A stretch of 32,827 nt of DNA, from NCBI GenBank assembly GCA_900128565.1, contig LT635947.1, positions 1 through 32,827 of the forward strand, given 5' to 3'. The notes beneath the pieces are model-generated. The model worked only from the letters and a program-made list of their open reading frames with translations. It searched no databases and was not told where the DNA came from. A program made the position numbers and the translations under genes. The DNA comes from Stramenopiles sp. TOSAG23-6. Its lineage: Eukaryota; Sar. This document shows positions 1,383 to 32,827 of the stretch, one piece after another (position 1 is the first letter of the stretch; each line of letters begins with the position of its first letter).

Positions 1383-2949
1383 ATGGTCGTGCCATCATCA
1401 ACCTTAAAAAGATGTAGGTATCAACTCTACTTTAAGTTATCAATAATGGTGTGCGTAGCACTTGGTCTGAGTAATACCCCAGTTGAATCACATAGTGAAA
1501 ATTGCATAGAGACAGAAACATGCAGTACGCACATTCCTTTAAATTTGTTTATTCGGGAACCTTATGCTGAAGACCAAATTGCTGGTCCAGAAGTAGATAT
1601 ACACATTGATGTTCCTTCTAATTTTACAGTTGGCCCTATTGATGGCTTTATTTGTGTCCAACTAGATAAACAAAAAGAAATATGCGCTGAAAATCTTCCA
1701 TCAAACTCCTCAACTCTGAAAGCAAAATTGACTGATGTATCTGTTGGTCGGCACACTATATCAGCGTGGATATCAAAGGGTGCGTCAAACATAAAAATTA
1801 GTCAACATACAGTATCATTTGACACATTAGCTGTGACGAAGCCTTGGTGGGGTCCGTACAGATATAGAACAGAAAATACAACAAAAAGCACGGAACCTCA
1901 AAGCAGAATAAAACACAACATTGAACCTGAAATGACTTGCTCACGTGATGCAGTACACGCTGCGGCAGATCTTGAACAAATTCCGCATTTTCTTGGCCCT
2001 TCACCATCTCGAAAAGTTGCAGAATCTAAAAAAGCGCTTGTCGCATTGTTTGCTGGAAAGAACAATTTTCGTAAAGCTGACGAAAAAATCCGACAATTTG
2101 GTCTAGAAGCCTTCAGTTTTATATTGTTTCTATATGATTTTGCTGAATTAGATATCAAAACATTCCCTTGGCTATCAAAGATCCCAGTGGTTTTGGTTTC
2201 CGGACAAATGAAATGGTTTTATCTAAAACGATTTTTATCTCCAAAAATAGTTTGTCATTACAAGTATATCATAATTGTCGATGACGACTGTGATATGACA
2301 GAACTTGATTTGAAAGGGTTTGTAGATGATATGATGAAATACCAAATTCACATTGGACAACCATCTCACTCGCAAAACTCACATCAACCAATGTATGCTT
2401 TCATGATGAATTTCATTTTTTTTTTCATACCAAATTCCGTACCTAACAATTTTTTTATGTGACATATTTTTTCACCAATATGTACCCATTTCTAATTCAA
2501 AATCCTCAATTGTTGAAAGAAAATGTGGCTGGTATATGGGTAAACTTCATCGAATCTGGGCCACTTCTTGCCTTTTCTACTGAAGCATGTATGTTTTATT
2601 TTTGTTCAAATTCGATTTTTTTTCATACGAAATTTTGTACTTAACAATTTTTTTTGAAATATTTTTCCAAAACACATGGGAATGTTTTTGGCCATTGATG
2701 CAACCTGATTTAGTTTCTGGTTATGGTTATGATTTAATTTGGGTTCCTGCGTGTGCAAAACGTCGAGCGGCTGTAATGCAACAACATTCTATTGTTCATG
2801 TCAATACAGGTAGTGCTTCAAGTGTAAGAGCTAATTGGGTTCCCCGGGCTATCGGTGAAGCCTTTACACTATTTAAAAGGCTTGCCCCTTTCAGTATTTA
2901 TCCAATTGATCCAAAACCATTAGGTAAATTCTACAGTATTTCTAAATAA
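1383..2949 (+). CDS. DUF707 glycosyltransferase-like protein with N-terminal beta-sandwich region
   Basis: Three exons, 1383-2392, 2482-2588 and 2678-2949, join in frame to 462 residues. Residues about 14-36 form a signal anchor or signal peptide. Residues about 50-150 look like a beta-sandwich (FICVQLDKQKEICAE, VGRHTISAW). The rest resembles DUF707: ALVALFAGKNNF near the start, IIIVDDDCD with an Asp-rich motif, GQPSHSQNSH, then across both introns NFIESGPLLAFSTEAWECFWPLMQPDLVSGYGYDL and HSIVHVNTG. In DUF707 families the W-x-C-x-W-x-L-x-Q-x-D-x-V-x-G-x-G-x-D block is conserved, and it is intact only if both introns end in AT. DUF707 proteins are predicted Golgi or secretory glycosyltransferases; the substrate is unknown. 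Start: the ATG at 1383 is the first in frame. Confidence 0.85.
2393..2481 (+). other. Non-canonical intron, family copy 1 (GT...AT)
   Basis: An 89 nt intron in the DUF707 gene. It starts GTATGC and ends CACCAATAT, with an internal GTACCTAAC (CTAAC at 2443-2447). Removing it restores CCA ATG TAC CCA and the DUF707 reading frame. The boundary bases ATGTA occur at both ends, so the exact cut is ambiguous within that repeat, but no placement gives a terminal AG. The next downstream AG would delete about 13 codons of exon. Confidence 0.85.
2589..2677 (+). other. Non-canonical intron, family copy 2 (GT...AT)
   Basis: An 89 nt intron in the DUF707 gene, from GTATGTTTTA to CAAAACACAT, with GTACTTAAC internally. 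Splicing restores GAA GCA TGG GAA TGT, the start of the conserved W-x-C-x-W block. CATG is repeated at both ends. The intron ends can pair: GTATGTTTT against AAAACACAT gives 8 of 9 pairs counting G-U. Confidence 0.87.
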
Positions 2950-2958
2950 ATAATATGC

Positions 2959-3028
2959 TGACATCAAAGAAACTTTTATTAGAAATTGAATGACATCAAA
3001 GAAACTTTAACTTTTATTAGAAATTGAA
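2959..3028. repeat. Imperfect 32-bp tandem duplication at convergent 3' ends
   Basis: The unit 2959-2990 (tgacatcaaagaaac... to ...agaaattgaa) is repeated at 2991-3028 with a 6-bp insertion. The insertion supplies the stop codon of the minus-strand gene at 3007. The repeat lies between the converging stops of the DUF707 gene and the coiled-coil gene. Confidence 0.85.
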
Positions 3029-4540
3029 TACCTGTTAAGTTCTCCTCGTATATCATTCACAAGATGAAGAGGTAGGTTATATCTACTTGGTGAAGATGAA
3101 TTCATGTATTGAAGTTCTTTTGTAATCTGATTGAACATTGTAATTGGAGTATTATACCGTTTCGCATCAATAGATAATATTTTTCTAACATATTTGCTAT
3201 GAGTAGGATTCTCGGAAACCCTTGCGTTGTAATTATCTATACTTTTTTTGTATTTTTGTTTTTCAAATAAATTATTTGTTGAATAATTTTCTACAATAAA
3301 TTGATCTGCTATATATTTATTAAGTTCTCCTCGTATATCATTCACAAGATGAAGAGGTAGGTTATATCTACTTGGTGAAGATGAATTCATGAATTGAAGT
3401 TCTTTTGTAATCTGACGAAACATTGAAATTGGTGGGATACTGCCTTTAAACTCTAATCCCCTTTTTTTAGACTTTTCTACCAAATCAGAGGATACAGTAG
3501 ATTGATCTGTACTTGCGTAATTTGTTTTGGTCTCTATATATTGTGATAATTCATCGTCCGATTCATATATATTGTGAAAAATATTTGAAATTTGAAATTC
3601 GTTAGGTACAGAATTTGGTACAAAAAGAAAATTGAAATTATGATGAAAATGTACATTCATTATTAGATGATGAATGATAACTTGGTGGTCCATCATCATC
3701 ACTATCAATACTATAGTTTTCATCTAAATGGTGGACCATTTCTGGAGTTGTTTGAATAATTTTATCTTGTGTGGTCTCTCTACTATTCTCCTCTTCTTTT
3801 TTATATTTTGCCCGTTCAAGCTCACTATTTATTTTATCAATTCGATTTTCTATTTCCTCGCGAAGTCTTTTGTTATAAAATACAAGACACTTTTTATCAT
3901 CCTGGTATTTTATTCTAGCTTCTTTTTTAATAGACTCGCATACTGAACTGCCAAGCTCTTGTTCTGCTAAAGTTTGCCAATTTGATATCGCTGACTCAAA
4001 AATTTCAGTCATATTGGCTAGCTCAGTCGCATAAGAAGTATTTCTGTTTTTTATTGCTGTTTTGAGACTGGATAAAAGATGCCTGTGTTTGCTCATTGAT
4101 TTGCATAGTTCTTTATATGATAGTGTGTTAATTCTATTATTTGCTTCTAAATTGTCAACGCATTGAACGAGTCTGAGCAAACGTTCAGATATGAAAGGAC
4201 CAAGAGAGCTTTCATTTCGAAGCCAAGTCTTCAAATTTGTGCCAGATGCGAATGGTTCAATTCTATAACGAATTCTTTTTTGGTCGTAAAACTCGCTAGA
4301 ATGAATATCGCCTGGCTCAATTGCATGTAGTAATGCATTGATCTCGCTTTGGTCATTTATAAATTCCTGCTCAAACTTTGACCTTGCCGTCATTTTTGAA
4401 ACATTTTGAAAAAAACGTATATTCTCACATGAAAAATTTTTTGACGCTCCAAATAATTCCTGAGTAGCTTCACGACCCTTTCGATATACTGAAAGTGCTT
4501 TTGCTATGGTTTCGTTGCATTTGCTTTGAGTGGGAAACAT
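3007..4540 (-). CDS. Uncharacterised helical/coiled-coil protein with internal duplication
   Basis: Two exons, 4540-3655 and 3560-3007, give 479 residues from the ATG at 4540 (MFPTQSKCNETIAKALSVYRKG). I do not recognise the family. Residues 1-260 are mostly charged helix (for example KKEARIKYQDDKKCLVFYNKRLREEIENR, then LERAKYKKEEE), with no signal peptide or membrane segment, so the protein is probably cytosolic. A BAR-like or other helical-bundle fold is possible but unproven. A low-complexity acidic/Ser linker (DSDDDGPPSYHSSSNNE) precedes the intron. The C-terminal part holds two nearly identical copies of a 35-residue block (QITKELQxMNSSSPSRYNLP and following) separated by about 60 residues. 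Divergent with PIMT, convergent with the DUF707 gene. Confidence 0.75.
3035..3425 (-). repeat. Two 106-bp direct repeats inside the coiled-coil gene
   Basis: Bases 3035-3140 and 3320-3425 match at about 102 of 106 positions by my alignment. Both are in frame, encoding the same 35-residue block. Near-identity at DNA level, third positions included, points to a recent duplication or conversion event. Confidence 0.9.
3561..3654 (-). other. Non-canonical intron, family copy 3 (GT...AT) with 6-bp flanking repeat
   Basis: A 94 nt intron in the coiled-coil gene. On the minus strand it starts GTACATTTTC, carries GTACCTAACGAATTT, and ends ATATATGAAT. The last six bases of the upstream exon, ATGAAT, are the same as the last six of the intron. 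Splicing restores AAT AAT GAA TCG GAC GAT. No AG lies at the junction. Confidence 0.85.
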
Positions 4541-4801
4541 ATTGAGGAAACTCGTTTAGGTTTCGTACTAACTGAAGCAAGCAACTTTTGAAATCACTGG
4601 ATCAACAAGTTTTGTTATATGAGTGACATGGCGACCTACCTGTGCCATCGCCATCGGCATCGATCGGAGTTTTTCATCAGCCGAAACCCACTTGAGAACC
4701 CCCTAACTACTAACCCCACCATCAACTTAGAGAGTATCAGGTAATAAAGTCAATAAAGTGTATTTGTTCCCAACGCCCCTCCAATCTTTATAATATTAGA
4801 T
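4541..4801. promoter_or_regulatory. Divergent intergenic/promoter region
   Basis: Between the starts of the coiled-coil gene (minus) and PIMT (plus). It presumably holds both promoters. A small GC-rich run of gccatcg/gcatcgatcg repeats lies near 4645-4665; otherwise nothing recognisable. Confidence 0.45.
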
Positions 4802-5574
4802 ATGGCATGGCGATGTTCAGGAGTGAGTAATGGGGAGTTGATCAAGAATTTAGTCGGAGCTTCCATAATACATACTGATCGAGTAATTCAAACAATGCTT
4901 GTCACTGACCGTCGTTTCTTTACTTCTTCCGATAGACCATACGACGACTCCCCACAAGAAATAGGATTTAACGCTACTATATCTGCTCCTCATATGCATG
5001 GATATGCTTTAGAATGGTTAGTGTCACATTTGAAGCCTGGAATGAAGTCGTTAGATGTTGGGTGTGGCTCTGGATACCTCACAGCTTGTATGGGCCAACT
5101 TTGTGGAAATTGTTATGGAATAGACCATATAAATCAATTAGTAGAATTAGCACGCTCAAATATATCTTCTTATAATCGTGATTTTTTAGACTCCGGCAAA
5201 GTAACCCTTCAGCAGACTGATGGTTTTAATGGTCTACCAGAAGAGGCTCCATTTGATGCAATTCACGTCGGAGCTGCTGCGCCTTCAATTCCTGTTGCTC
5301 TCGTCGATCAGTTGAAGTGTGGAGGTTTGTACGAAAAATTAGAAGAATTCGACCCTGACAGTTCTATTTTTTTGCACTACATTATGTACCTAACGAAATG
5401 TAAACTTGAAATAATTCTTCACAGCACATAATGATCATACCCGTTGGTCCAGTTAATGGTCATCAAGAAATATTAGCTGTGTCTAAGGACAAAGACGGTC
5501 ACGTGAGTACAAAATCTCTTATGGGGGTTAGGTTTATTCCTTTAACTAGTGTAGAAACGCAGATTAAAGGATAA
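4802..5574 (+). CDS. PCMT1: Protein-L-isoaspartate O-methyltransferase
   Basis: Exons 4802-5328 and 5430-5574 give 223 residues, close to animal PIMTs. The enzyme transfers methyl from S-adenosylmethionine to L-isoaspartyl residues to start repair of damaged proteins in the cytosol. Seen in order: N-terminal MAWRCSG as in metazoan PIMT; DSPQEIGFNATISAPHMHGY substrate/active region (residues 49-68); SAM motif I LDVGCGSG (84-91); FDAIHVGAAAPSIP (151-164); LKCGGLMIIPVGPVNGHQEI (171-190) spanning the intron. The GGLMIIPVGP motif reads through only with the GT...AT boundary. The C-terminus (VRFIPLT, then SVETQIKG) ends at TAA 5572-5574, and the 3' end is tandemly duplicated downstream. The start at 4802 is fixed by homology. 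Confidence 0.96.
5329..5429 (+). other. Non-canonical intron, family copy 4 (GT...AT) containing a bypassed AG
   Basis: A 101 nt intron in the PIMT gene from GTACG to CACAGCACAT, with GTACCTAACG (CTAAC at 5390-5394). Its left half has diverged from the other copies. A good-looking canonical acceptor, TTCTTCACAG, ends at 5424, but joining there to the donor at 5329 runs into a stop, and the alternative donor at 5325 gives the wrong frame. Cutting after ACAT at 5429 restores the conserved PIMT motif GGLMIIPVGP. Confidence 0.85.
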
Positions 5575-5640
5575 TAAAATCTATAATGGGGGTTAGGTGT
5601 ATTCCTTTAACTAGTGTAGAAATTAGTAAAGGATTATAAA
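5511..5640 (+). repeat. Tandem duplication of the PIMT 3' end
   Basis: The last 60 or so bases of the PIMT coding region (5511-5575, with atgggggttagg and cctttaactagtgtagaa) recur at 5576-5637 with a few changes. The second copy lies past the stop and is presumably 3' UTR. Confidence 0.85.
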
Positions 5641-5734
5641 ATATTTTTTATTTTTCTTTCAAGTTTTTACTTCAGAATTTTACTTTATTTTTTTTTGTTT
5701 TTTTTACCAAATTTTGTAATTATAATAAAAACAA
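5575..5734. other. Convergent intergenic region (3' ends)
   Basis: Lies between the PIMT stop and the giant gene's stop. It holds the second copy of the PIMT tail and T-rich sequence. On the minus strand AATAAA occurs at 5647-5652 and 5684-5689, candidate poly(A) signals for the giant gene; on the plus strand AATAAA occurs at 5573-5578. Protist poly(A) signals vary, so these are only suggestions. Confidence 0.4.
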
Positions 5735-8700
5735 TTAAAAAAACATATGATCTTGTAAGCCTGTAGTGTCTGGTTCACTCGATGAATAATATTCTTCTTT
5801 TGCTTTTTCATCCATTCCACTCCAGACAGTCTTATCAACTTTTTCTTTCGTATCTTCTGTTATTTTTTCTAATTTTAAATCATTTACAACATTATCATCT
5901 AATATTTCGTCGGGGGGTGGTCCAGCGTCAATTGACTTCTTTGTCTCTTCTATAATACCTTTATCCTTTGCATTTGACTCGGAAGTATCAAGGTTTGATC
6001 CGCGATTTTTTCTTTGTCTCGATCTCCTACGACGAGATTTTGATTTGGTACTGTCCCCTGCATTATTAGTAGAAGAGCGAGACTTTCTGCGCCTAAATTT
6101 TCTACCAGATCTTGAGGAAATCCCAGACTTGCGGCGAGAAATACTACCTCCGGCTTGATCAGTTGATTTTGATGCATTTTCTAGATTGGTACTACCCTCA
6201 GCCTTATTGCTAGAAGAACGATGTTTTCTGCGTCGAGAGCGCCGAGACTTGCGACTAGAAATATCACCCCCTGCTTGATCAGTTGGTTTTGATATATCTT
6301 CCCCTGCCTTGTTACTAGAAGAACGAGACTTTCTGCGCCTATATTTGCGCCTTCTATCTCCTTTGCCAGAGCTAGAGGATCTTTTGGACCTTTTTTTGGT
6401 TGTGTCGTTCACTCGAGGATCGTCTACTACAGGGACAACTTTCCTTAAAGCTTTGCGTTTTGCCAGTGTTTCTTTACGTTTTATGGCACCTGCTGATATC
6501 TCAGCCATTGCTGCTTCGCTTACGGTGCTAGCTTTACTTATCATCTTACTAAAACGATTACGTTTTTTTCCTGCATCCTCCTCCTTTTTCTTCTTTGTCT
6601 TTGATTGAAGCATTTCTTGTGCCCGAATCAAAACAACTCTAATCCAAGGTAACCTTTTTGATAAAACGAGTCCGCACCAAATCAACAGGAAGCAATTTCC
6701 ACCAATGAGAAATAAACCTAATTGCGTCTGTTCATTTTTTCTTCTGAATGCATTTGCACTTATCAAGAGATTTGAGTAAAAACTACAGAATATTGCAAAA
6801 AGGAGAATAAGCTGAAGATGAAAGTCTACTAAGTGTCTAAATGGGTCTACTAGAGCACACAGAACAAAGAACATCACAGATATGACAACTGCAACAGCAT
6901 TACGTGTAATCCCACCTGGAAGGGCGGCAAGCATACCAGTCAACATTGCCTTTCGAATTAACTCCACAAATTCATACCACCACACTTCATGTCTATAACT
7001 AATGAATATTGATCCATACGTTTTTGTAATTCGGTAGTGAAGGATTCTCAAATCTTTGTTGTACAGAAGTACTTCGTGCATTTCATTTCCCATGGCTTCT
7101 TCTGCTATAAGCCACACTCGATTGGGCCATAAAATACAAAATCCTATCACTGGCACTCCAATAACATACACAATAATAGCGCTGATTGCCACGATTGACA
7201 ATATTCTATATTGACTATCGTCACAACTGACAGCAAGATCCGCAACAAGGTAATTACTTCCATTTACCTCAAAACAATTAAATACACGAAAACATCTCAC
7301 AGAAAAGGATGGATATATGCAAAACATCACTAATATAAGAAGTCTCTTTGCATTCATTGTTGCGCTTGCTTTTGTGAATTTTACTGTATTTCCAGATAAG
7401 TTCTTTAGACCGTGCGCTGTTTTGAGCGCCAGTAGAATAACGAAAAATATCAGTGGCATTACCATCATGTATGCATAAAATTTTGTCGCAAAATCGGATG
7501 AAAAATCACATGGACTTACATATGCTGCAAACCGCATTATATCAAAATTGATTACATGGAAGGATTCAATAAAAGCAGTATAGTTTTCTGGGTATTCTTC
7601 ACCAGAAGCATATTGCATTTGGGATAAAACTTGGGTATAACTCAAAACTAATTTTACCGTTGCGCCCAATTCTGCCCAATATTGCCCTAATAATCCATGC
7701 TTGTCGTCCACACTGTGTAATCGTTTTCTCTTTAAAATTTCTTCCTTGGTCAAAACAGATTTTTTCTGTTCCTCGTGCAATGCTCTAATGAGTGTTAGTC
7801 GATCTTTACGCGAACCCATACTTTTCCGTGCTAATGTATGTCGTAGTCGTGATTCCTTTGCTAATTGTGCTGCTTTGCGCTTCATTCTCATTTCTTCTAG
7901 TTTTGCTTGGTAACTTTCAGTGTGCATAGTTTGTGATGTCCATATAATATTTGGAGTTTCAATATCATTTGTATTGATTCCTTTAGTCATTGAACTAATA
8001 CTTTTTATAGAAACAGAGCGCAATGCAGCTTTTCTAATTTTGTTACGAGTTGCTTCCAACTTTTCAAGGTAACCATCAGCATAGTAACCTTTGTCCGCTT
8101 TCGAAACCATCACACAAATTGATACAAAATAGGAAAAGAAACCAAGCAAAATACAGAGAATAATCATACCTTTTGTATTGCCTGTACTCTCTTGGTTTTC
8201 GTTTTGGCATTTTGTACAATGTTTACCATCAGACTGCAGTGCCCAACCTTGCATACATAATGCACAAAGAATTCCCATATGCCCTTCACGACAATTCTGC
8301 CAGTTAGATGTCGAATTTGCCCTAATAGGCCCGGCTTCACAGTTGTCGGGTGTTAAACATTCACGTAGAGTACAATCGCGATATGCTTTCTGGGATAATG
8401 GATCAGATGCACATTTACAAGAAGAACACGGGTCGTCATTGCAATCATCTGTAATTTCTTTTGGGCAAAACCAGTCTGGATGTTGTACTAACAATTCTGG
8501 GTCTTGCCAGTAACCAACAACTCGTTCATTCACAGAATTCGTTTCACTGCAGCTACCATTAATATAAGGATTTCCATTACATGGTACAATGTGGATACGT
8601 CGATTTACTGCATTAGTTTGTAAAGCTAGACCAAATTTGTCACAACGCGCACCCGGTGGACAAGGTTGGCATTTTTGAGCCCATGTATCCTTTCCAACAA

Positions 8701-10471: not shown

Positions 10472-13400
10472 ATGTATTTTGGAAAAATATTTCAAAAAAA
10501 ATCTAAAAAAAATGTTAGGTACAAAATTTCGTATGAAAAAAAATCAAAATTGAAAAAAAAATAAAACATACATCTGGTGCACCTGAACCGGTCGGACAAT
10601 ATCTAGCAAATGCATCGACAGACCATATTCCGATTTCTCCATCTGGTGAAGACTCGCAACTCTCCGGAGTGGGTCTATCAATTGTCAAATCGACACCTTC
10701 TACAAGACATCTTCCAAGTTTGGGTTGAAGATTTTCAGATAGGAAAATATTCCTTTTTCTTTCACCAATCATAATATACTCTGCATCTTCAATCTCAAGA
10801 CATGCTCGTCTATCAACGTCTGAAGATAATATAGTACCATCAGACTGTTGACAGACTCCATAAAAATGATTGTCGTAGGGAAAGTCACAAGAGTATTTAT
10901 ACTTTCCTTCTTTACAGTAATATCCCTCAGGACATCTATTTACTCTCATTTTTTCTTTCGTCCTGTATTGCCCATGATGCCATGCACATTCATAATCCCC
11001 CCTGAATTTAGGATTCCATTTTGCACCAATTTCTTTACACAAAGCTTTGTCTGTAACATCACGAATTACACCTTGGCGGTTTATACATGTGCCAGTGTCT
11101 TTAACGTGCCAATTGCCACCAGCAGATGTACAGGAATATTGATCTGTTTTCTCTTTCATTAATGATTGTGCATCCGATGCCACACAGACATCTATATTTG
11201 CGATATCTTCGCCATCAATGATACAATATTCGAATTCTTCATATAATGAAATATCACCTGTAGCAGGAGGACAAAACCATGCAATAGCATTTGAATTTTC
11301 AAGTAAATTACTGTCCATCTGACCCGTAACTGGATCCACTTTAAAAACACAACTTTTCGGAAATGCCCCATCAACACAATAAAATCCACTTGGACAAAGC
11401 ACTTTTGAGTGTGCGCCAGGGCATACATGTGACTCTGGACAAGTTTTAGGAAATACTGTGCCTTCAGGGCAGTAATACTGCTTATCTTCTGCGATGTTTT
11501 CTTGATCTACTTGAGAATCCCAAATACATATTTTTTTTTCCGATGCATTTGAACAATAATACCCAGCAGGGCATATTTTAGGACTATATGAACCTTCTTC
11601 GCAGTAATTAGCATGTCCATCACCCCCACAGGATCTCAGTACACTAGATTTCGGACAGTAAGAGCCCTTTGGGCATATTTTGGGTACCAACGATCCTTCT
11701 GGGCAGTACGGCGCTTTTGGCTCTGCCGTCCAGGTTCCGACACCCGCTGGATTTTTTGGATCTTCGCAAAGCATTGGTGTACCCCTTACATTAGTAACAT
11801 CTGTTCCATTAGCTAATTTACATCTACCAAGTCTAGTATTGGGATCGCTATCCATTTCATATTCCCAAACTCCACCAAACGCAACGCATGTTGACCAATT
11901 AGAAGCAATTGCACCTCGACACGCGCCATGAATATAAGGAAAATCGCAACTAAGCTTGACGTTTCCTTCTTTGCAGTAAAACCCTCCAGGGCAAATGGAC
12001 GGTGTAATTGTGCCTTCGCCACAGTAATGTTCTTTCCATGTACACGATTGATTTTTTTTACACTCTACATCAGATGTAATACTCGTACACGCCGAATTTC
12101 CTTCACAATGAACAAGATTCATATCAATATCATCACTGTTGTACTTACACGTTGCCTTATGCTTGTTTCTGGCACAATAAAATCCAATAGGACAAGGAAG
12201 TTTTACTTTTGCATCTTTACAATAAAATCCTTCTTCACATGATGTAGGATAAGACGAATTAGATGGACAATACCAACTTTCTGATGGGGAATCAATTAAA
12301 TTGTCTTCAATGTCTGGATTCCACACACAAGATTTCTTTAAAGATGCTAGTTCACAATAGTAACCTGCTTCACAATTGAGTGCTCTTCTTGAACCCGCAG
12401 GACAGTATAGTCCAATACCCGAATCGCATTGCCGTCTCTCATGAGATGACCGACAGAAATAACCCGCAGGACAGAGTGACATACTTTTTGATCCTTTTTT
12501 GCAATAGTATGCATCCATTTCAACACCAGTATTAGCAGCAGGATACCAAACACCAGAGGGTCCATCGCGAATGCGGCTATATGATATAACCCCTACTCTT
12601 TCTTTTAATGGACAACTAGACTCTGACATTTGTGTCCGCAAATTACATGGGTGTTCACCTTCAGCAGAGAACTTCAACTGGCGATCAAACCCAACACATT
12701 TTATATCTTTATCGCATTCTGACTGACAAAATTGCACTGTGCCATTGATGGTTTCAGACTTACATGTTGACATATTTAGAATGGTGTGTCCAAAATTATC
12801 CATACTCCTGTACGTATTATTTACCCATGTACCGCGGGCACCAACACATCCTTCTTTGCCGCTACCTTTTGAATGCCAGTAATTATTTTCACCAACACAC
12901 AATTTTTTATTTAATGAATTAGTGGAAGAAACATGGTCTGAAAATGTTACGCATGTATTAAGATCCGTAATATCTTCATCACCAATCATACATTTTCCTA
13001 CACCCCAAACACACTGCATTTCAGTCGTGCGTGACGATATTATTTCTAATTTCGATGCACTCAAACAAAATTCCGGATCACATGAAATTTTCTCAGCCCC
13101 ATCTTTACAATAATATCCCGCCGGACATTCATCAGGTGTAGAATTCCCTCCAGGACAAAAGGAAGCATCGTCTTTGCATGCATTTTGATTTCCGTTGCCC
13201 TCTCCGCTGGAGCTGCTGTAATGGCATAAATTTTGTTTTTGTATGTTAATTTCAGATTCATCGATAATGTCAGAGTCCCATTCACAACTTCTCTTAGAAA
13301 CTGAGTCTAAGCAGTAGTAACCTCTTGGACATGGCTCATTCAAAATGGACCCTTCAGGACAGTATTCGCCCGGTTGGCATTGCTCTTTGATTGTAGAATG

Positions 13401-22400: not shown

Positions 22401-25400
22401 GGTAGAATTTTCTACTTTTTTAATCGTAAATTCTACATCGTTGTCAAATTCTACAGTTCCCGTTTCTGTATCAATAATCCGTTCACATTTCATATGATAT
22501 CCTTTGCTGGAGATAGTCGAAGGGCATTTTACATACTGCTCATTATCCAGAGGAATTTCATTAGACGTTGTTTCTGCGACATATTCTATACGATATTTAT
22601 GAGGAATGTGCGGACTATGACGCATAACAAACGTTCCACCAGACCCACCCGCTCCATATCCCTTACCATCATTACCACCAATACTACCACTTTGACCGAC
22701 TAGAATTTCAATCTTTTCGCCCTTTGTAAGATTAAAATTAGCACGGATAATAGCCCCTTTTCCTTTTTTCCTTGCCGCTTTATTATTTGTATTTTCACGC
22801 CAGGCGTCACTTGCACCTGCAGCTTCTATCGTATACGTTGCAGTTGCCGGGGCTGTCCATATTTGTATACCACCTTCAACATTGAAGAAGTCATTTTTTC
22901 TTATCCAATGATCATCATCATAGCTAGGGTTGTATGAATTTTTACATCTGTCGCTGTCCGGGCCTTCGCTTCCTTCTTTACCACAATTATCAAATCTCAT
23001 TGTTCCTCCAAAGTCATATAAATGATGACTTGCAATATCTTTACTGAAAAATCCCGGGGAACACAAAAGGCATTCATCAATATTCGCGTTTTCTCTTCCA
23101 TGCCCTCCATGACACCTACAATAGTATCCAGGTCCAGTGAATGTTTCTTCACATGTATATTTATGTCTACATTTGTTTTTTTCTGATTCCTGAAACTGCA
23201 CCAAATCAGGTGATACGCTGCTCTCATCTGAATTAAAAAAATACTGATATATGCTGTAATCAGGCGTGCTAGGATCTACATCATCGTACGCGATGTCCAT
23301 TGAACCATCACTATTTATCTTTGTAACGCTACCTTTGTGCCACTTGTTTCTCACAGCACAACAATCGACTAAATCATCAAAAAGGGTATTGTCTGATGGA
23401 AGCTCTATTCTTTCGGCCAGGGCTTTTTTCAGAATATCGTCACAATCAGAATTACTAATACAATTGTCAAGTTTAACTTCACAATATTTTCTAATCTCCG
23501 CTATATCATCAGCAAGATTTTTCTCTGTTGGGGCTAAAAAAAAACCCTTCTTTACCTCTACCTCTGCATCCTTTGTTATAGTTTCTTTAAACCATTTTTC
23601 AGAAGGGTTGTCATCGCCATCTTCGTCTGGGTTACAACCTCGCCATTCATCTTTGTTGCATGGATTATTAGCACATTTATTTTCTTTTACACATGGTATT
23701 GCTTTACCTTGTTGATCGATACCACCTCCAATATAACCTGCTAAACAGGAGCAATGAGATTTATTTTTCGCTAGAGTATACCCGTCGCTTGTTTGAGAAC
23801 ACACGCCGCCAATTCCACACGGTTCATCGGCACATTCATTCACATCAACACATATTTTCTGTACATATCTGAATCTCGTATCAAGTTTAGTGATACAAGC
23901 ATCTGATGAAGTATAAGCACAATCTTCCTTGAGTTCAAAACCAGGTTGACAATCTCTACATTGAAGAAGTGTAGCGCTACTATCACACGTATTGTGAAAA
24001 ATATTTAAAAAAAAAATCGTTAAGATACAATATTTCGATCGGAAAATAAATAAATCTGAAATTCATGATGAAAACGTACACGTCCCCGCGGAATTACATG
24101 CTTCGCCCCCCGAAGCGTCGCATTTACTCATAGTGCCACATACACATCCATCACCCCCGTCCTCACTTAAAGAACAATACTCAGAACCCCAGTATCCAAG
24201 TTTCATGTCTGTCCGAAATTCACACATATCCTTTTTTCTACACTCAGTTTCAGGGCCTGTTTTGTTTGACCAAAACCCAGTAACCGAGTCCACAAATCCA
24301 TAGTTTGCAATACACTCGGCACAAGAGTATTCAGATACAGCTGTCCTGTCGCCATTGAGATTTTTACATGAGTCTATTTCGGATTCCACTGCTTTGCATC
24401 CTTCTAATTGTCTATATGTGTCATGTTCCAGGGGGTCTAATAACTCTTGAATGTCAAGACATGAGGTTCCGACAAAACCATTCAAACAAGTTTTACAATT
24501 TGTAACCGGGTCAAAACCCTTATCACATCTACACTTTGCGTGTACATTGCGCTTGCGATAAATACTAAATCCATCCTCAGGTAATTTGTCAATGAGTTGA
24601 TCACATGTTGTGTTACATGAACAATGAGTTTCACTACTAGAGTAGTTCATATAAAAGAAGTCATCACACAACTCGATACACTCGTTCAATGTTTTTGAAT
24701 TATGATTCTCTTCATTATCAGCAACACACGAATAATCTTCCTTCCAAAATTCAAATGTACTGTCTGATGGCACAGGATTCCCACATGTACCGTGAGAAGA
24801 ACAATCATAATCACTTTCACATAAATCTCCATCTAAGGTTTCACAAAAAACACCAGAATATCCTTTAGGGCACACGCATTGTAACTGTGTTCTTGTATAT
24901 GTATCTGCATTATGATTACTCGACTCTGTAAATGAATCTGGAAGATATCCCTTCTCTCTCAAAGAACAGCGTACTGGCATTTCATAAACGACAAAAGTCG
25001 AAACATCAGCAGCACCTTGATCATTTGATGAGAGCCTAGCGCCACAATATAATGAATCTATAAATGAATTAGTATCAGTAGTCCATTTTCGAGTCGTCCA
25101 GTTGCTTCCATTAGCTGTACATTGTGATTCCTCTGTATACGAGGCATTGTCACACGAATCAACGCACTCTACCTCTGTATTAACATCATTAGGTGTACAA
25201 TATCCATATGTAGTCCAGAATCGAGTTGTCCATATTCCTCCACCCTCTTTACATTCTTTAGAATCTGTATACGAGTCATTGTCACACGAATTAACACAAG
25301 CTACCTCGCTATTTACATCATTAGGTGTACAATAGCCATTTTCTGTAGCTGTATATTTGCATGGTATAAGTTCACCTGTGCATTCATCTATTTTAGGTGT

Positions 25401-28400
25401 ATCATCAAGTGGGAATACAACTATAGACTGGTCATCACAACTTTCATCATTGCACCGAAAGCCTACATAGGAATAATTAATTGCTTTCTCTCTTATGATA
25501 CGTTTAAGTGAATACGTGTTCGACACTGTGAAGTAATTACCGCTTTGCTTCATGCAACCTAAATATGTCATAGTTCCGACCCATTTAGAAAGGTTGTCAC
25601 GCTGATTCCATCCTGATTTCTCCATAAAAACAGTATCGCATTTTGACTTTATTGAGTTTGGTTTTGAAATGTCAAGGCACATGCTCATACAATCTGACCT
25701 GCTCATTAAAGACGTATCATACTTTCCTAAATCATCTACTTCATGAAAGCCAGCATGCAACCCACCATCAACAAGTGGAGAACGATATAAATTTGAAACA
25801 TCGGTCTGGATATTGAACTTCAGTGCAGATGACCCAGGAAAACGTTTTGTGTAAGTAGTAAAAGGAGGGTATTTCTTAGAAAGCAATTTTACTTTGTATA
25901 CAGACCATAATCGCGGACGAGAATTCGTTGCATTAGAATTACCCCATTGCTTCTTCGTAACTGACTCCAAGAGAGGTGGCATATCTGTTGGATACTTATT
26001 ACACTGGGTATACGATATATCAGTAGTGATATTTTTTCCAAAAATAACCTTTGAATTTTGGCTAAAGCAGTCGTCGGCGGTTTCACATGAAAATGCAATG
26101 TATTCTATTTTTTTTGTTATAGCGTGTTGAATTGATGATGCAAAAATTCGAGACACATGTGGGGTTATGGTTATGCAGTAGCGCCAGCCGCCTTTGCCAA
26201 CATTATTCACGTTGCCCTCGTTCCATATGGGTACGCCCGCCGTTCCAGCTTTGGTCGAGGAGCAGCCGTGCAACCAAAAATCAGCATGCACCCCTGTCAC
26301 GGCGTTATCGCCATTGCCCACATTGTAACTGAGGGTCGGGAATTCTGCGGCGCACTCAGCCTTGGTCAGTGCACGAGTTCCACTTGGGCACGCCGCCCCT
26401 TTCGTCTCGTGTTCCGTTACTGCCCCTTCCGTCTCTTGTTCCGTTACTGCAACGGCATCAGGGAGTCCGCCAAATGCAGAAGCCGTAGTATAACCATCTT
26501 GCTTTATTACACGTGAACCAAATTTTGGCCAACATTCGCATATTTTATTTGCATTATGAAATGTAAAATAGAAACCAGCTTCCCCCAAATTGACACATTC
26601 CCTTCGACAAGAAGCGGCATCAGCTACTACTGTTTCAACTCTTGTTTCCAAAACAAATGGAATGCTCGGAATATCACTGTCTTCATTGTACACTCGAGTT
26701 GCTTCTCGACTGTGATTATAAACATAATTATCATTTGGAGGGCGTTGAAGTTCGTAGATCCGAAATAGGTCGTTTGTAGCTTCACTTATAATACACTCGG
26801 AAGTCCAAATACAATTATTTGAACCATCGGTATCATAAAAATATGAAATAAAATTGCATGATAATTCACTCACACATATATCCTTACAATTTTCCAAACT
26901 TGAAGCATTTGTCTGACCATTTGAAATACTATTTGAATCATCATATGCGCATACCCCAACACACGAATTTGGCTTGCAAAGCATTTTCCACTCATTTTGG
27001 ATCAGTGGGGCTTCTTGTATTCCATTAATATGAGACGCATCAACCAGTGGGTAGTATTTTATGTATTCCTTGTTCTCTTCACACGTGGTGTCGTCCCAAT
27101 TTTTGAATAGACATTTACANTGACCATTTTTCATTTTAGATGGTGGCTTACGACCTGGAGTTGTGTCTCTGTTGATTATTACACCATCATCAGTTGACAT
27201 AGAAGATCGAATAAAGCGAATATCACTCATACTAGTTATCGAGAAATAAGTCCATTCCGCTTTTATATAATCATCGCAAAAATTCTTATTATCAGAATTA
27301 TAAGATTCTGTTTCGGATTTCCACAAAAAAATTTCTGCCCCGAACTTAACCTCAATTTTATTTTTCAAATCAGACATGCTCATTCCTTGAAGTATCTTAA
27401 CACCAGTACCTTCATTCCAGTATGATGGTCTGATTTCACCGAGTTCACCGGTGTTTGACGTAGCACACTTCATTTTCCAATAAACAGGTTCCAAATCATT
27501 GACAGTCACGTCACCGCCATCCCAAAACACTTCGAATCCCACAGCCTTTCGCTGATTATCCCAAGATTTAAAATCTGTTGGTGTTCGCCCAAGTATATTA
27601 CTAGTAGTTTGAATTTCACTAGTACATGAATTGTGAAAAAATATTTTACATTTGAAATTCGTTAGGTACAAAATTTTCTATGAAAAAACAAATCGAAATT
27701 CAATTTTGAAAACGTACACGATTTGTGACACCATTCAATAGCAGATGCTTCTTTTTCTACTAAAGGCCCAAATTGATTTCCGTCAGGTAGTATGCTCCCG
27801 CTTCCATCGAAAGTTTTAATGAAATCATTTTCATTTGAACTTGTCGAATCTGCACAAGAACCTAAAATACCAGCTGAGTAAGGCAAAGTTGTTACATCAC
27901 CATGAAGACAACCTTGGAATTTGACACTATTAACCAATTCGACGAATATATTAGTATCTTCATCATTGTTAGCAGAAGACATTTTGAACTTTCCTCCAAC
28001 GTGAACTTCAAAGGAAAAACTACCAACACCATTGCTCCATGCTGGTTGTCCGTCAAACACAGGAACTTCTTGATCTCCGTTTGTTGTAACACAGTTTGTA
28101 CAGGGGGGATTTGTCCAAAACCCCCTTCGTCGCGACCACGATCCCTCACAAGGATCAGGAGATATATGCCAATACCCTGAAGTTTTGTTTACTGGTTCGT
28201 AGTACAAAAATATGTATTGTGCTACATTTTGAAATTCAGGAGTATCGACCCATTGATTATATGTTGATTCAGGAATGCAGTTTCTTGATTTATCGAGATT
28301 ACACGTCCATTTAATTTTATGTTTGTATTGTGAAATACCATTGCAGAGTGGTACATATTCAGTAGAGTAACTCCCATTCAAAAAACCCCAAAGACTGGAA

Positions 28401-31400
28401 GTTGTTCCATAAACAAAAAGTTCAGTGTTAAAATCTGTTTCGTCCTCAATACAAGACCCACCGTTTTGACAAGGACTGCTATCACAAATTGAACTGAATG
28501 ATTGACACGACGTAGACGCTATTTCACTGGTATATTTCCCAGGAGAACAATGGAAACAGTCTGTTTGACCTGGATCAGGCTGATACATATGAATAGGACA
28601 ATGATGACAATCTTCTATGCTATTCTTCTTTACATAATCAGCATTTGTTGGAAAATAACGCCCCGAAGGACATTTGATACAAAAATTTTCTTCAAAAAGA
28701 TAGTGCCCAGGATAACACGTCGCACACTGTCTGGGACCACGTCTGTCTTCAATTGACTTGGGTTCACCAAATTCACAATCCGCTGGCCAGTTCCGACATT
28801 CTAATTTACCTTCTTGTTCTATTGTGAAAAACCTACCCTCAGATGGATAAACAGAAAAAAATTCACATTTTCCAGAATCCACCAAATTGCATTTGGCTTC
28901 TTGTGTACGCTCTGATACCCCATTACAACGACCTTCAGATTCATTCGTTGTGGAAAATATTTTAAAGTTTAAATTCGTTAGGTAAAAAACTTGATACAAA
29001 AAAAATGAAATTTAAATTACCGATGAAAATGTACGGTTGTAATGCTTTGAGTAATGGATGAAAGATCAGGGTAATCTTCTGAAGTGTCCACTGCTTTGCG
29101 AAGCCGATTTTTAATTGCATCATCTGGTTGATACATGCAAAAACCCTTCACTAGTTTTTGCATATATTCCCAATCTGAACATTTTGTACAAACACCCTCA
29201 TTTATGTGACCATAGGGACCGGGAGACTGAATCAGAAGATTTCTATTAGAATTTTTTTCACCTTCATCTTCATTGCAAGGCAATAATGACTGACACTTTT
29301 TACCTCGAGTCATATCATTGCCAACCCTTTTATAAGAACCCCTAGGACATGGGACACAATAATTTTGCGTTGCCCCTTTACCGGTTCCATGATTACAAGG
29401 TTTACAAGTTGATAGATCGACGTATTCTTCACCACAAATTTCTTTATAAATATCAAGGCTGTTATAACCATCTTCAGCACAAAATGTACATACATCATTT
29501 TCACGTCTTCCTCCATCAAAGACATCTGTTTTTTCCCCGCAATCAGTATCACATAATTTGCACTCATTTATGCTATTTGTGCGCTTGTCGTTATATTTAC
29601 CATTTGAACATTCTGAACATATAGGTGGGTCTGTACTTCCTTCGACGGAGCATGCATCCCCTGGCCATTCAAATCCTCGGGGACACACCTCATTACAATC
29701 GATACACGCCGTTGCAGTACTTGAGGTACTGCTATACCGGCCGATAGGGCAGATTTTACATATTGGTGCATTCTTCGTCGGAGAGTCTTGTGGTATGACT
29801 TTATATCCTGGACCACAAACAGCCTCTAGACAGCCTATTGAAGTATCCGTGGCGTCGTTGTACGTATCCTCAGGACATTCAATACAATGAGGTGACTCCT
29901 CCTCCTCCTCCTCCTCCTCCTCCTCCTCCTCCTCAGTTGAGTAATGAAATGTCATTTGATTTGTACCAGGACTTCCATCTTGATTATCCTTACAATGATC
30001 TGTGCTCGGTAAATGTGTACCTGGTGGACACTCACAAGACAAGCAAGATGTGCCAGAGAACTTTTGAGTATTTTGATATTTACCATATGGACAAGTTTTA
30101 CAGGAAGGTATCTTTGTGGGATTGCAAATGCTTTCTCCTACAGTCCAAGATCGAGATGTCCATGTATCCCCATTAGAAGTACATTCTGATTGAACTGTAT
30201 ACGAGGCATTGTCACATGAATCAACGCACTCTACCTCTGTACTTACATCATTAGGCGTACAATGTCCATATGCAGTCCAGAATCGAGTTGTCCATGTATT
30301 CCCATTAGTTTCACATTGCGATTGATCTTCATAGTTGGCATTGTCACACGAATCAACACACTTTGCCTTTGTATTTTTAGTTACTTCATTAGGTGTACAA
30401 TATCCTTCTCTTGTAACAGAACTTTCAACATACTCCCCTTGTGCACACGCACAAGCATAACATTCATTTTTACTAAACAGATCATATTCTATTCGGGCTG
30501 TCTCCAAATACGTACCATGTGGACAATTATGACATACACCCTTTCGATCTTTATGATGTTTTGATGTTTCTGGTAGATATGTCCCCCTTTTGTCACATTC
30601 GTGCCATTTACAATCCTTTCCAGAACTCCATTGTCCATCAGGACATTCATTACATTGCAGTGCTCCCGTGCCATGCTCACATCCACTCGGAGAATAGCCC
30701 GGATTACATTTACACTCTGTGCACTCTAAACCTCTGTGATATTTTCCGCGTATCTTACTATTGCACAGTGGACTATAATTGTTTGCACTGCATCCAAGAC
30801 ATGATACACAACTAGTGTTTAACGAACTTGGAATCTCATTCTCTTTGGAATTTCTAAATACTGGATCATTGTTATATTTTCCATAATCACATTGTAAACA
30901 AACTGGACTTGCATCCGTATGACAACTATGACTAATATTCCCAGCACTATCCGACGTCGTTTCCCAATACTCCCCATCAGGACAACCGCGGGCGGGGAAT
31001 GCAGCAAAAAAATTAATTACAGCTTCTTCACTACACGCTATGCATGGGTCCGTAATAATTTGCGATCTCAGGTAAAATCCAGCTTCACAATCTTTACACA
31101 CAACACAAGAAGCGTCACTCACAGCACCTTTCCTATCGAAATTTGAATTATATTCACCTATGTCGCAAAAAACGGAACATTCTCTACACTCAGTTAATTG
31201 TTTATCACGGTATTCTCGATAATACCCAGCTTCACAGTCTTCACAACTCCAAATATCTTCATAGTATCCCTGTTTAATTCCATATCCTAATTTTGTACGT
31301 TTTTGAATTGCTTTTTTCCCAGCAGGACAATATATACATCCATTAAATACTGTTCCACCCACAAAATATGGGTGTACTTTTCCTTTAACACATGTTTTAC

Positions 31401-32827
31401 ACGCTGTATGACCATTGTCGGGATAACTGAAATTTCCGTAAAAACATTGCTTTTGTGTACTTTGTCCCAGATTATCTTGGTAAAACTGAACATCACAATT
31501 TTTGCACTTCGTTTCATTTTCATCATTCTGATACTGTCCTCTGTCACAATTTTTACACTGCGATTTATTTTCCTCATTCTGATACTTTCCACTGGGACAA
31601 TTTTTACACTTGTCTTGTCCTATCTCATTCTGATACTTTCCTGTGGGACAATTTTTACACTTGTCTTGTCCTATCTCATTCTGCCACTGTCCTTTACCAC
31701 AGGATTTACATTCAGTTGCACCTTCAAAATCAGAAAAATACCCCGGAAGACATTTGGTACATTTTTCCTCTTCTTTAGAAAACCATCTTTTTTTAGCTAT
31801 GTGTGTCCAAAGAAATTTTTTCTTTGAGAGATTATTAGCTTGGTCGACCAGAGTACAATCTTCTTCGTACGTTCTATCTGCTAAGGGCTTACATTTTTTA
31901 TAGTTCGATATTTCATAAGTTAAATTGTTTTCATTTCTGTAAAAACCTTTGGCACACTTTACACACAACAACCAACCTTTTTGTGAACAAAATTTTTTGT
32001 ACTCAAGAGGTGTGCCCCATTCTTCAAGATTATAGGATCCGGTAGCAAACACCGGAACGTACCCTGTGTTGGAACATTCTAAAACATTACCGTTGTTTTG
32101 TTTTAATTCATAAGATTCTTTTATTTGATAGTCAGCCAAATCATCTCTAGTCCTTATTATTTGAAAATTGTTGTTGTATTCAGAGTTTGAAAAATATCGA
32201 CTTTCACGTTTATGTTTTTTGGGAAAATATTTTCAAGAAAAATTTCATTAGATACGGAATTTCATACAAAATAAAAAAATTAAAATTCACAATGAAAATG
32301 TACGCCAAAACCAGGAATATAATACCTGTTATTTTTGTTAGTACTATCTTCGTTCCTACAAAACCCTTCATATATCCCATCCCCGTCCGTATGATAGTCC
32401 TTATGCTCGGGTTCCTCTAAAATATCATTTTCAAAACAAGGTTTTTGATTGTCAAAAGTAGGTTCATCAGATTCAGGTCGGCACCAAAGAACATTGAGAA
32501 AGACATTCCTATATGCTTGATGTGATGCCAAAAAAAAATTTAATTTTTTTTTTGTTAGGTACAATATTTCTTTGGAAAACAAATAAAATTGAAATTAAAA
32601 TGATAAAAACGTACATGTCGTGCTGCTTCTTCTGCTTCTGCTTCCTCTCTCGCCAACTCTGCCGTTTCTCTTCGATTCTCGGCTTCAAGAACTTCATCCG
32701 CTGCCTCATCAGCCTCTCGTAGACCCTCTGCCGCGATCTCTGCTGCGATCTCTGTTTTGACTGCGACCTCATATGCTACTTCTGCTGCTTTTTCAGACGT
32801 TTTTTCGGCAACACGGATGACCTCGTC
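5735..32827 (-). CDS. Giant modular cysteine-rich multi-pass membrane protein (5' partial)
   Basis: Seven exons in the window (32827-32615, 32519-32304, 32211-29035, 28942-27718, 27625-24080, 23986-10572, 10471-5735) join in one frame to 8842 residues plus stop; the true start lies beyond the right edge. Order: helical Glu/Ala segment, ephrin-receptor-like (GCC2/GCC3-type) cysteine repeats, EGF- and PAN-like modules, an ALK/LTK-type glycine-rich domain, a central region with few cysteines, over a hundred CPxGxYC-type repeats, about seven membrane helices and a basic Ser/Arg tail. The layout is that of a huge cell-surface receptor or adhesion/matrix protein with its N-terminus outside. Similar cysteine-repeat plus multi-TM proteins occur in algae and oomycetes; their function is unknown. 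All six introns are members of the window's non-canonical family. One N lies at 27120. It could be a gene-model fusion, but frame and module continuity across every intron argue for one gene. Confidence 0.82.
5738..6620 (-). other. Basic Ser/Arg/Lys-rich repetitive cytoplasmic tail
   Basis: After the last helix come about 290 residues of low complexity with repeated RRRKSRSSSNKAGxxxxxxD and SxSTDQAGG units, ending in an acidic patch. The repeats are diverged copies of a roughly 35-residue unit. It could bind the cytoskeleton or lipids, or be phosphorylated; nothing specific is visible. Confidence 0.7.
6640..8175 (-). other. Multi-pass transmembrane domain of the giant protein
   Basis: About seven hydrophobic helices: GMIILCILLGFFSYFVSICV (near 8170-8100), FYAYMMVMPLIFFVILLAL (about 7480), LLILVMFCIYPSFSVRCF (about 7350), ILSIVAISAIIVYVIGVPVI (about 7210), then the ELIRKAMLTGMLAAL and NAVAVVISVMFFVLCALV segments (6985-6840), LILLFAIFCSFYSNLLI and LGLFLIGGNCFLLIWCGLVL. 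The motifs IYPSFSVRCFRVFNC and WWYEFVELIRKAMLTG match a C-terminal module I know from algal and oomycete cysteine-repeat proteins, whose biochemical role is not established. Confidence 0.75.
10472..10571 (-). other. Non-canonical intron, family copy 5 (GT...AT)
   Basis: A 100 nt intron from GTATGTTTTA to CAAAATACAT, with TTTTCATACGAAATTTTG followed by TACCTAAC. Splicing gives GCA CCA GAT GTG TGC AAG, preserving the repeat pattern PxxCxxGxxC. The first downstream AG (ending at 10463) would also keep frame but delete that conserved Cys. The intron ends pair in 8 of 9 positions (GTATGTTTT/AAAATACAT). Confidence 0.85.
10572..23986 (-). CDS. Giant gene, exon 6: 13.4-kb exon with most of the ectodomain
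   Basis: One uninterrupted 13,415-bp exon of about 4471 codons. In order: a calcium-binding-type EGF module (DVNECADEPCGIGGVC, CSCLAGYIGG); a region with further cysteine modules; an ALK/LTK-like glycine-rich domain (about 22870-20680); a dense array of ephrin-receptor-like repeats (about 20670-18060); a central region poor in cysteine repeats, possibly with fibronectin-III-like strands (about 18060-16290); then a long array of CPxGxYCxxxxxxxxC repeats to the end, interrupted by CMIG-type modules and one PAN-like module near 12790-12560. The open frame extends upstream of 23843 to the splice site at 23986. Confidence 0.85.
16630..16700 (-). repeat. Gly/Glu/Asp low-complexity GC-rich repeat
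   Basis: Encodes DGDSQGDGEGGGGEGGGGDG. It is a local GC-rich, purine-rich coding strand, probably a replication-slippage linker. Confidence 0.75.
20680..22870 (-). other. ALK/LTK-type glycine-rich domain region
   Basis: Recognised by IQIWTAPATATYTIEAAGAS, then KGEKIEILVGQSG, GAGGSGGTFV, IIMIAGGAGGSH, and at the far end GGFGGGGSGGTNCGGGGGGM and GQGGSSFIGQFG with PNGYVEISF. These match the order of motifs in the glycine-rich domain of ALK-like receptors, which forms poly-Gly-II helices. Here it is split by a cysteine-rich insertion (about 22070-21650) and a beta-rich stretch (about 21590-21100), which is unusual. In ALK this domain binds the ligand; its role in protists is unknown. Confidence 0.7.
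23987..24079 (-). other. Non-canonical intron, family copy 6 (GT...GT or GT...AC)
   Basis: A 93 nt intron, GTACGTTTTC to CACAATACGT, with GTATCTTAACG internally. ACGTGT is repeated at both ends, so the cut may lie anywhere in it: GTACG...ACGT or GTGTACG...ATAC. It is the only copy that need not end in AT. Splicing restores GGG ACG TGT GAT AGT. Confidence 0.8.
24080..27625 (-). CDS. Giant gene, exon 5: PAN/WSC-like, EGF and YCTPND modules
   Basis: 1182 codons. An unassigned N-terminal part (GFEVFWDGGDVTVNDLEPVY) is followed by two PAN/WSC-like cysteine modules (CKDICVSELSCNFISYF; CRRECVNLGEAGFYFTF). A GC-rich segment at 26155-26480 follows, then repeated SxxCxxMCLD-type modules, two YCTPND modules (25075-25360), and EGF-like repeats (CVCPKGYSGVFCE; CRCDKGFDPVTNC). 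The single ambiguous base of the window, N at 27120, falls here inside a Cys-rich stretch and leaves one residue undefined. Phase 1 at both ends. Confidence 0.8.
25075..25360 (-). repeat. YCTPND module pair, exon 5
   Basis: Two tandem copies of a module of about 45 residues: YCTPNDVNxEVxCVxSCDN, SYT, one or two Cys, then WTTRxWTT. The DNA is closely similar to the exon 3 pair. Confidence 0.85.
26155..26480 (-). other. GC-rich coding segment with atypical codon use
   Basis: In-frame coding segment of exon 5 (CPSGTRALTKAECAAEFP, then VPIWNEGNVNNVGKGGWRYC) whose DNA is visibly GC-richer than the AT-rich flanks, with many GCC, GGC, GTG and ACG codons. It includes a short internal repeat, AVTEQETEGAVTEHETKG. 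The segment looks like one self-contained cysteine module inserted among native ones. Confidence 0.65.
27626..27717 (-). other. Non-canonical intron, family copy 7 (GT...AT)
   Basis: A 92 nt intron, GTACGTTTTC to CACAATTCAT, with TTTTGTACCTAACGAATTTC. Splicing restores AAA TCG TGT ACT AGT GAA. TGTAC is repeated across both boundaries. Confidence 0.83.
27718..28942 (-). CDS. Giant gene, exon 4: cysteine repeats and EGF-like module
   Basis: 408 codons plus one base. It starts ESEGRCNGVSERTQ, followed by three ephrin-receptor-like repeats (CATCYPGHYLFEENFCIKCP, then CHHCPIHMYQPDPGQTDC) and an EGF-like start (CDSSPCQNGGSC). The rest is a less cysteine-rich region (residues about 190-400) that I cannot assign. 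It ends in phase 1 (TCG T|GT). Confidence 0.8.
28943..29034 (-). other. Non-canonical intron, family copy 8 (GT...AT)
   Basis: A 92 nt intron, GTACATTTTC to CACAACGAAT, with TTTACCTAACGAATTT. It is phase 0, joining ACA ACC to GAA TCT GAA. Only one base is shared at the junction, so the boundary rests on frame and on analogy with the other copies; nearby in-frame alternatives exist. Confidence 0.75.
29035..32211 (-). CDS. Giant gene, exon 3: cysteine repeats, YCTPND modules, poly-Glu
   Basis: 1059 codons. Mostly ephrin-receptor-like repeats of the form CxxCxxGxYxxxxGxxxCxxC. Near its start it has five tandem 17-residue units (KCKNCPTGKYQNEIGQD type, 31455-31712). In the middle are two YCTPND modules (30130-30425) and a 13-residue Glu run (29896-29934). 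No membrane segment is present. The open frame continues upstream of the first obvious start-like codon to the splice junction at 32211 (KRESRYFSNSEYNNNFQ), so the exon start is set by the intron. Confidence 0.8.
29896..29934 (-). repeat. Trinucleotide (CTC/GAG) microsatellite encoding poly-Glu
   Basis: Thirteen uninterrupted GAG codons on the coding strand, between two cysteine-rich repeats. Such perfect repeats change length easily. Confidence 0.95.
30130..30425 (-). repeat. YCTPND module pair, exon 3
   Basis: Two tandem copies of the same module as in exon 5 (GHCTPNDVSTEVECVDSCDN, then NGDTWTSRSWT). The stretch at 30198-30297 is nearly identical in DNA to 25138-25233. Confidence 0.85.
31455..31712 (-). 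repeat. Five tandem 51-bp units encoding 17-residue cysteine repeats
   Basis: Units of the type KCKNCPTGKYQNEIGQD occur five times in a row. The middle ones are nearly identical at DNA level (gatactttcc, tgggacaatttttacac, ttgtcttgtcctatctcatt), so the array expanded recently. Confidence 0.88.
32212..32303 (-). other. Non-canonical intron, family copy 9 (GT...AT)
   Basis: A 92 nt intron, GTACATTTTC to CAAAAAACAT, with CCGTATCTAATG (a weaker CTAAT core). It is phase 0, joining TTT GGC to AAA CGT. There is no flanking direct repeat, so the boundary is set by frame and analogy. Confidence 0.75.
32304..32519 (-). CDS. Giant gene, exon 2 in window
   Basis: 72 codons, phase 0 at both ends (QAYRNVFLNVLWCRPESDEP near the start, NRYYIPGFG at the end). 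It is acidic, with three cysteines and no recognisable domain. It is bounded by two family introns 216 bp apart, the shortest internal exon of this gene in the window. Confidence 0.7.
32520..32614 (-). other. Non-canonical intron, family copy 10 (GT...AT)
   Basis: A 95 nt intron, GTACGTTTTTATC to GGCATCACAT, with TTGTACCTAAC. The upstream exon ends ACAT and so does the intron. It is phase 0, joining CGA CAT to CAA GCA TAT. Confidence 0.8.
32615..32827 (-). CDS. Giant gene, exon 1 in window (partial): Glu/Ala-rich helix
   Basis: 71 codons open to the window edge, phase 0. The composition is dominated by Ala, Glu and Arg in heptad-like runs (EIAAEGLREADEAADEVLEA), typical of a single long helix or coiled coil. 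There are no cysteines, in contrast with everything downstream. The exon is slightly GC-richer than its neighbours. It joins CGA CAT to CAA GCA across intron copy 10. Confidence 0.7.

Follow-up and report, generated by a model that had tools for sequence, protein, structure and literature searches.

Nearly all eukaryotic introns end in AG, for reasons that are unsettled. Known departures include the larvacean tunicate Fritillaria, in which AT is the most frequent 3' splice site (44% in F. pellucida and 34% in F. borealis); introns of its AG/AC and AG/AT classes nearly always close with a YAY triplet, and YAY is often found ahead of the donor as well. These introns are transcript-supported, and U2AF is duplicated in F. 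borealis (PMC13326754). Amoebophrya carries repeated non-canonical introners with direct repeats of 3-5 nt at their junctions and a transposon-like spread; inverted repeats of 8-20 nt pair their ends, no signature is shared among their variable splice sites, and a search for U1 found none (PMC7789003). Introners of other eukaryotes are introns alike in sequence that occupy many genes and take their splice sites partly from target-site duplications, with GY donors and AG acceptors (PMC9860276), and introners with ordinary or unstated ends appear in PMC9481584 and PMC12768974. The nonconventional introns of diplonemids and euglenids have non-AG ends that can pair and are not conserved, those of euglenids also being described as having direct repeats (PMC12621601). 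For Giardia one GT-AT intron is listed, which is rarely spliced (PMC10711314).

Acceptors other than AG and non-canonical introners are therefore both known already, and the suggestion in the initial annotation that no such family was known is not supported, given the 3'AT sites of Fritillaria (PMC13326754) and the non-canonical introners of Amoebophrya (PMC7789003). Full-text term searches of one open-access library brought up no single introner family that combines a constant GTAYGT donor, a CTAAC branch site and a preference for AT at its end.

The window, by which we mean the whole 32,827-nt stretch of DNA that was analysed, holds ten introns that were re-derived by exon joining (10/10). 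All ten begin with GT, nine end in AT and one in GT, and they measure 88-101 nt; the proposed group of ten related introns with a shared motif and nine AT ends was thus recovered, whereas of the proposed length range of 89-101 nt the upper bound stands and the lower does not, the shortest copy being 88 nt long. On the plus strand, two introns interrupt the DUF707 gene, for which a Pfam match was obtained with the protein joined across both. The first (2393..2481; 89 nt, GT..AT, direct repeat AT) is real as originally called, with its 3' end now corrected to 2481, where the junction reads CACCAATAT/GTACCC, and the second lies at 2589..2677 (89 nt, GT..AT, direct repeat CAT). The protein-L-isoaspartate methyltransferase (PIMT) gene has an intron at 5329..5429 (plus strand; 101 nt, GT..AT, one-base repeat T), and the alignment of its product to 1i1n is ungapped across the junction, in agreement with the earlier view that homologues fix this site. 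Within this intron, GTACCTAACGAAATG at 5386..5400 of the plus strand forms the branch-site block, which also occurs in other copies. The remaining seven introns are on the minus strand: one in a gene without an assigned function (3567..3654; 88 nt, GT..AT, direct repeat AT), three in a giant Cys-rich repeat gene (10472..10571, 100 nt, GT..AT, direct repeat AT; 23987..24079, 93 nt, GT..GT, direct repeat ACGT; and 27626..27717, 92 nt, GT..AT, one-base repeat T), and three further introns at 28943..29034 and 32212..32303 (each 92 nt, GT..AT, without a direct repeat) and at 32520..32614 (95 nt, GT..AT, direct repeat ACAT).

At all ten window introns, the reading frames that score best on either side agree once the intron is removed, although two introns have a flank whose coding score is negative (upstream of DUF707 intron 2 and downstream of the PIMT intron). 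With up to three mismatches allowed, the 15-base core motif of the introns matches the window 8 times where 1.3 matches are expected, a number reached in 0 of 100 shuffles, and Rfam models at gathering scores gave no match in the window. As a separate observation, the minus strand of the window contains a 7663-residue open frame with Cys-rich repeats once three introns are removed.

The motif is also enriched in the assembly that contains the window as contig C405 (8,027,113 bases in 408 contigs; 8.03 Mb), where the family 15-mer with up to one mismatch has 1255 matches and the reversed pattern, used as a control, has 0. For a closer description, we combined the window with 30 loci, each with an exact match to the core at its centre, and with 20 partly overlapping 10-kb stretches (contigs C1-C7), and searched this DNA with a profile that was seeded with 25 copies having a GTAYG/GTACA start, the core and an ACAT/ACGT/ATAT end and was retrained in three rounds. 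The search yielded 69 distinct full-length copies in unrelated genes, 86-113 nt long with a median of 97. In Giardia, by comparison, GT-AT is a single case and no family in the part of PMC10711314 cited here.

At profile-defined ends taken without frame adjustment, the 69 copies end in AT (55), GT (6), TT (5), AC (2) or AA (1), and the AG acceptor of U2-type introns occurs in none of them (0/69), with the reservation that a profile seeded with AT- and GT-ended copies may favour such ends. When a strict element pattern was run over the whole assembly with its last two letters varied, we obtained 400 matches with AT, 14 with GT and 9 with AG; these are raw counts that include near-duplicate contigs and overlapping matches, and they are free of the profile's seeding bias. 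Profiling the copies and tabulating their terminal dinucleotides, a check that had been proposed at the outset, therefore gives an AT majority, with AG at 0 of 69 and at 9 versus 400 AT assembly-wide.

The element opens with GTAYGT, followed by the block GTACCTAACGAATTT with a CTAAC branch-site consensus; a T-rich tract then leads to either CACAATAC or CAAAATAC, the tail being AAATATTTTTTCACAATACAT or similar and mostly AATACAT. The 5' ends are GT in 64 copies, AT in 3, GC in 1 and TT in 1, and the donor context (+3 A 68; +4 T 40 or C 29; +5 G 60 or A 9; +6 T 67; n=69) is the GTRNGT-like one of U2-type GT donors. Branch-site patterns of the CTRAY type are present in 66 of the 69 copies and CCTAAC in 57, a rate that is inflated, and a core conservation that is overstated, because this block served to select 30 of the loci. 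The median distance from the branch A to the 3' end is 37.5 nt. Toward the end of the element, position -9 is A in 69/69 copies and position -8 is C in 42, A in 19, T in 8 and never G, so that TTTTTCA is at that place never extended into a CAG; an AG between the branch site and the 3' end occurs in 16/69. Position -3 is a pyrimidine in every copy (69/69), and 57 of 69 copies close with YAY, a likeness to the YAY final triplet of Fritillaria (PMC13326754). The main Fritillaria classes in the portion of that paper cited start with AG, whereas the introns here start with GT and belong to one sequence family.

To place the elements in their genes, we scored 150-nt flanks, for which 67 elements were scorable. 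The coding score was better in sense on both flanks for 62 of 67 and in antisense for none (0/67). Removal of the GT..AT segment keeps the frame in 39 of 40 well-scored copies and in 61 of 67 without filtering. Among the six misfits at profile-defined ends, three are explained. Two of them form a head-to-tail pair at L032 7483-7678, where the second element starts directly after the AT end of the first and removing both together restores a TBC motif, and one, at L033 2994, fits the frame with an end two bases later, where a GT repeat sits; the other three (L020 1451, L035 5420 and L029 1003) are without explanation. Cruder and noisier flank classes for 60 profile hits including partial ones (S, sense; A, antisense) were SS 29, S- 13, -S 7, SA 4, AS 3, AA 2, A- 1 and -- 1, and of the two AA cases one scores sense in the main flank scoring and one is a true antisense copy. 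This antisense copy, a partial one at L032 4528-4602, lies within a coding exon and is apparently translated.

This orientation bears on whether the copies might be internal eliminated sequences that are cut precisely between direct repeats at the DNA level, before transcription. Such excision would leave one copy of the direct repeat after removal, whatever its letters, as is seen here. It would not account for the alignment of the elements with their genes (62/67 sense, 0 antisense, and one partial antisense copy in an exon) or for a conserved donor and branch-site consensus, and we regard it as very improbable.

We then asked whether the copies could be ordinary GT-AG introns whose AG lies slightly inside the exon or the intron, which is what the AG ends of nearly all known introns would lead one to expect. 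The first downstream AG within 60 nt, present in 39 of the 40 well-scored copies, restores the frame in 14 of 39, which is the chance level. An AG lies between the branch site and the end in 11 of the 40, and the first such AG works in 2 of 11. Homologues, moreover, allow no inserted or lost residues at the compared junctions. An ordinary AG end is thus hardly credible for this family, and the earlier proposal that none of the window introns can end in AG now has statistical support.

The frame fixes the length modulo 3 alone, and the exact length of the introns therefore needs homologues. In the MATE gene (L021), the joined sequence reads LEWWAFE against LEWWSFE of DETOXIFICATION 14, with no gap at the junction. 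A joined RING sequence reads CGHSLCAPC against CAHSFCSYC of RNF8, again ungapped at the junction, and the TBC alignment to a solved homologue is ungapped there as well. At L037, whose product is presumably an exostosin-like protein, the joined sequence is GGWDCLRHYEII; the WDCxRHYE block of this protein was found in 61 of 62 homologues with a query that included the Cys, and all 9 of 9 matches to a search begun one residue past the Cys have the Cys.

Where a direct repeat flanks an element, neighbouring registers yield an identical mRNA. With an AT repeat, GT..AT and AT..AC are therefore equivalent, and with a tail that is mostly AATACAT the introns could be read two bases upstream, starting with NT and ending in AC, as U12-like or U2-type AT-AC introns. 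U12 donors are ATATCC and GTATCC, and the U12 branch site, TTCCTTAAC, lies close to an AC or AG end. None of the 69 starts has a U12 donor (+5 is G in 60 and A in 9). The AT-AC register is also contradicted at two sites: a shift of -2 would replace the first Trp of the MATE LEWW with TGA at L021 and turn the Cys of WDCxRHYE into Tyr at L037. We consider an AT-AC reading highly unlikely, and the GTAYGT donor bears out the original judgement that U12 AT-AC introns do not fit. A shift of one base, to a TG..CA register, may apply but would give an unusual donor.

The repeats indicate where the acceptor may come from. Base -1 of the upstream exon equals the matching intron end base in 65 of 69 copies against 61.3 expected from shuffled pairs (P 0.001), and base -2 in 54 of 69 against 38.7 (reached in 0/2000 shuffles), with no excess at base -3 (24 against 23.6 expected; n=69). 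Target-site duplication, a feature of some introner families, is thus evident as a match above shuffles at -1 and -2. Most copies lie between two halves of a 2-bp direct repeat, which in the usual case is AT, and in 53 of 69 the last two intron bases repeat the last two of the exon whichever letters these are, so the AT-type 3' end first described holds as a predominant form and not as a fixed one. Of the 14 strict-pattern matches ending in GT, 10 are preceded by GT at the donor; of the 9 ending in AG, only 1 is preceded by AG there, which target duplication leaves unexplained. At L028 near 1452, where a 24-nt exon repeat is near-identical between units, the element sits at CCAT^TTATGA and the next unit is empty, CCATTTATGA.

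The repeats are discordant in 16 of 69 copies, with AT as the intron copy in 13 (for one of these, at L033, a later end is the better reading) and as the exon copy in 1, and 5 of the 16 differences would be synonymous. At L021 and L037 3254 a conserved codon holds the exon copy, and therefore the intron copy has changed or was AT from the start. We infer from the sequences that AT is preferred at the acceptor, since copies with other upstream exon ends mostly still end in AT. The target-derived acceptor here is usually AT, in contrast to AG in the introners described in the cited part of PMC9860276.

We think it probable, from the sequence evidence, that the copies form one family of introners, mobile elements that turn into introns, which carries a GTATGT donor and a CTAAC branch site with it and uses the downstream target copy, usually AT, as its acceptor. 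An element of the form GTAYG...RTAC would insert into a gene and generate a 2-bp target-site duplication. A U2-type spliceosome would then cut at the element-borne GT and join the exon that follows the downstream target copy, restoring the mRNA exactly, and the 3' splice site would in consequence be mostly NT, usually YAT, in place of AG. By analogy with Fritillaria, the acceptor would most likely be recognised by U2AF or a second-step factor able to accept YAY as the end when a T-tract precedes it. Terminal inverted repeats, a feature of some introner families, are here the very short GTAT/ATAC, which counts somewhat against this reading.

Several findings in the genome bear on the host and its splicing machinery. 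An FKBP gene has one GT-AG intron, found by reading gaps (100 nt, GTAAGT, TTCTAAC, TTTTAACAG), which is the sole canonical intron firmly found; when GT-AG introns were sought by coding score, 21 candidates came up, 14 of them away from family copies and none convincing by eye, and a second scan gave one doubtful case. Prp8 domain IV matches at C84:11768-12456 in two adjoining stretches whose frames overlap by one base, a split that may be an assembly frameshift, and the domain match occurs in 0 of 14 control genomes. Because of these two genes and the eukaryotic-type PIMT and DUF707, we read the host as a eukaryote. Searches with snRNA models gave no match for U1 and U2 at E<=1 and a sub-threshold best E of 0.106 for U6 among the candidates scored (41/101, 46/464 and 47/916), and a U2AF small-subunit query gave 0 candidates, which is uninformative on the presence of U2AF.

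It had been suggested that such a family would need either an altered acceptor recognition or a non-spliceosomal route. In the latter case, base pairing would bring the intron ends together and another activity would cut, as proposed for euglenozoan nonconventional introns, and non-AG ends with short direct repeats at the junctions are indeed recounted for introns of that type in the part of PMC12621601 cited here. The duplex energy between ends is, however, -3.07 for cognate and -3.06 for swapped ends, the mean folding z is -0.79 against single-base shuffles, and donor and CTAAC are strongly conserved. Spliceosome-independent removal is accordingly unlikely, and this half of the suggestion is not needed, since the donor and branch-site consensus is conserved and the genome has a Prp8 domain match and a GT-AG intron. 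What remains of it is altered recognition by the spliceosome: the sequence pattern suggests that, for these introns, a signal other than AG can serve the splicing machinery as the end mark. The unpaired ends (cognate equal to swapped) and the conserved donor and branch site also set the family apart from diplonemid and euglenid introns as portrayed in the excerpted text of PMC12621601. With Amoebophrya it shares repeated non-canonical introns with direct repeats at the junctions, and it differs from the introners described in the cited portion of PMC7789003 in that its ends show no cognate pairing, its donor and branch site are constant, its repeat is 2 bp long and AT is its preferred end.

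With little more than even confidence, we propose that two acceptor rules operate in one nucleus, AG for a few old introns and YAT for a mobile family whose acceptor came from target duplication and was then selected towards AT. If this is true, AG-independent acceptor recognition arose in a protist independently of Fritillaria and was driven by an introner burst. Because a non-AG intron recurs hundreds of times or more beside a GT-AG intron, a single cell would allow a comparison of how acceptors are chosen. Families of this kind would escape gene finders and introner surveys built on an AG requirement, and the genes that carry them would appear broken.

Two minor observations concern the contigs. 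Two exact-pattern scans for viral contigs pointed to 3 and 4 contigs, in which the profile and inspection by eye found no element, the profile matches there being weak and partial (best E 0.00025). Contigs C13 and C14 have near-identical element places and C2 has mirrored ones, which marks them as redundant or palindromic contigs.
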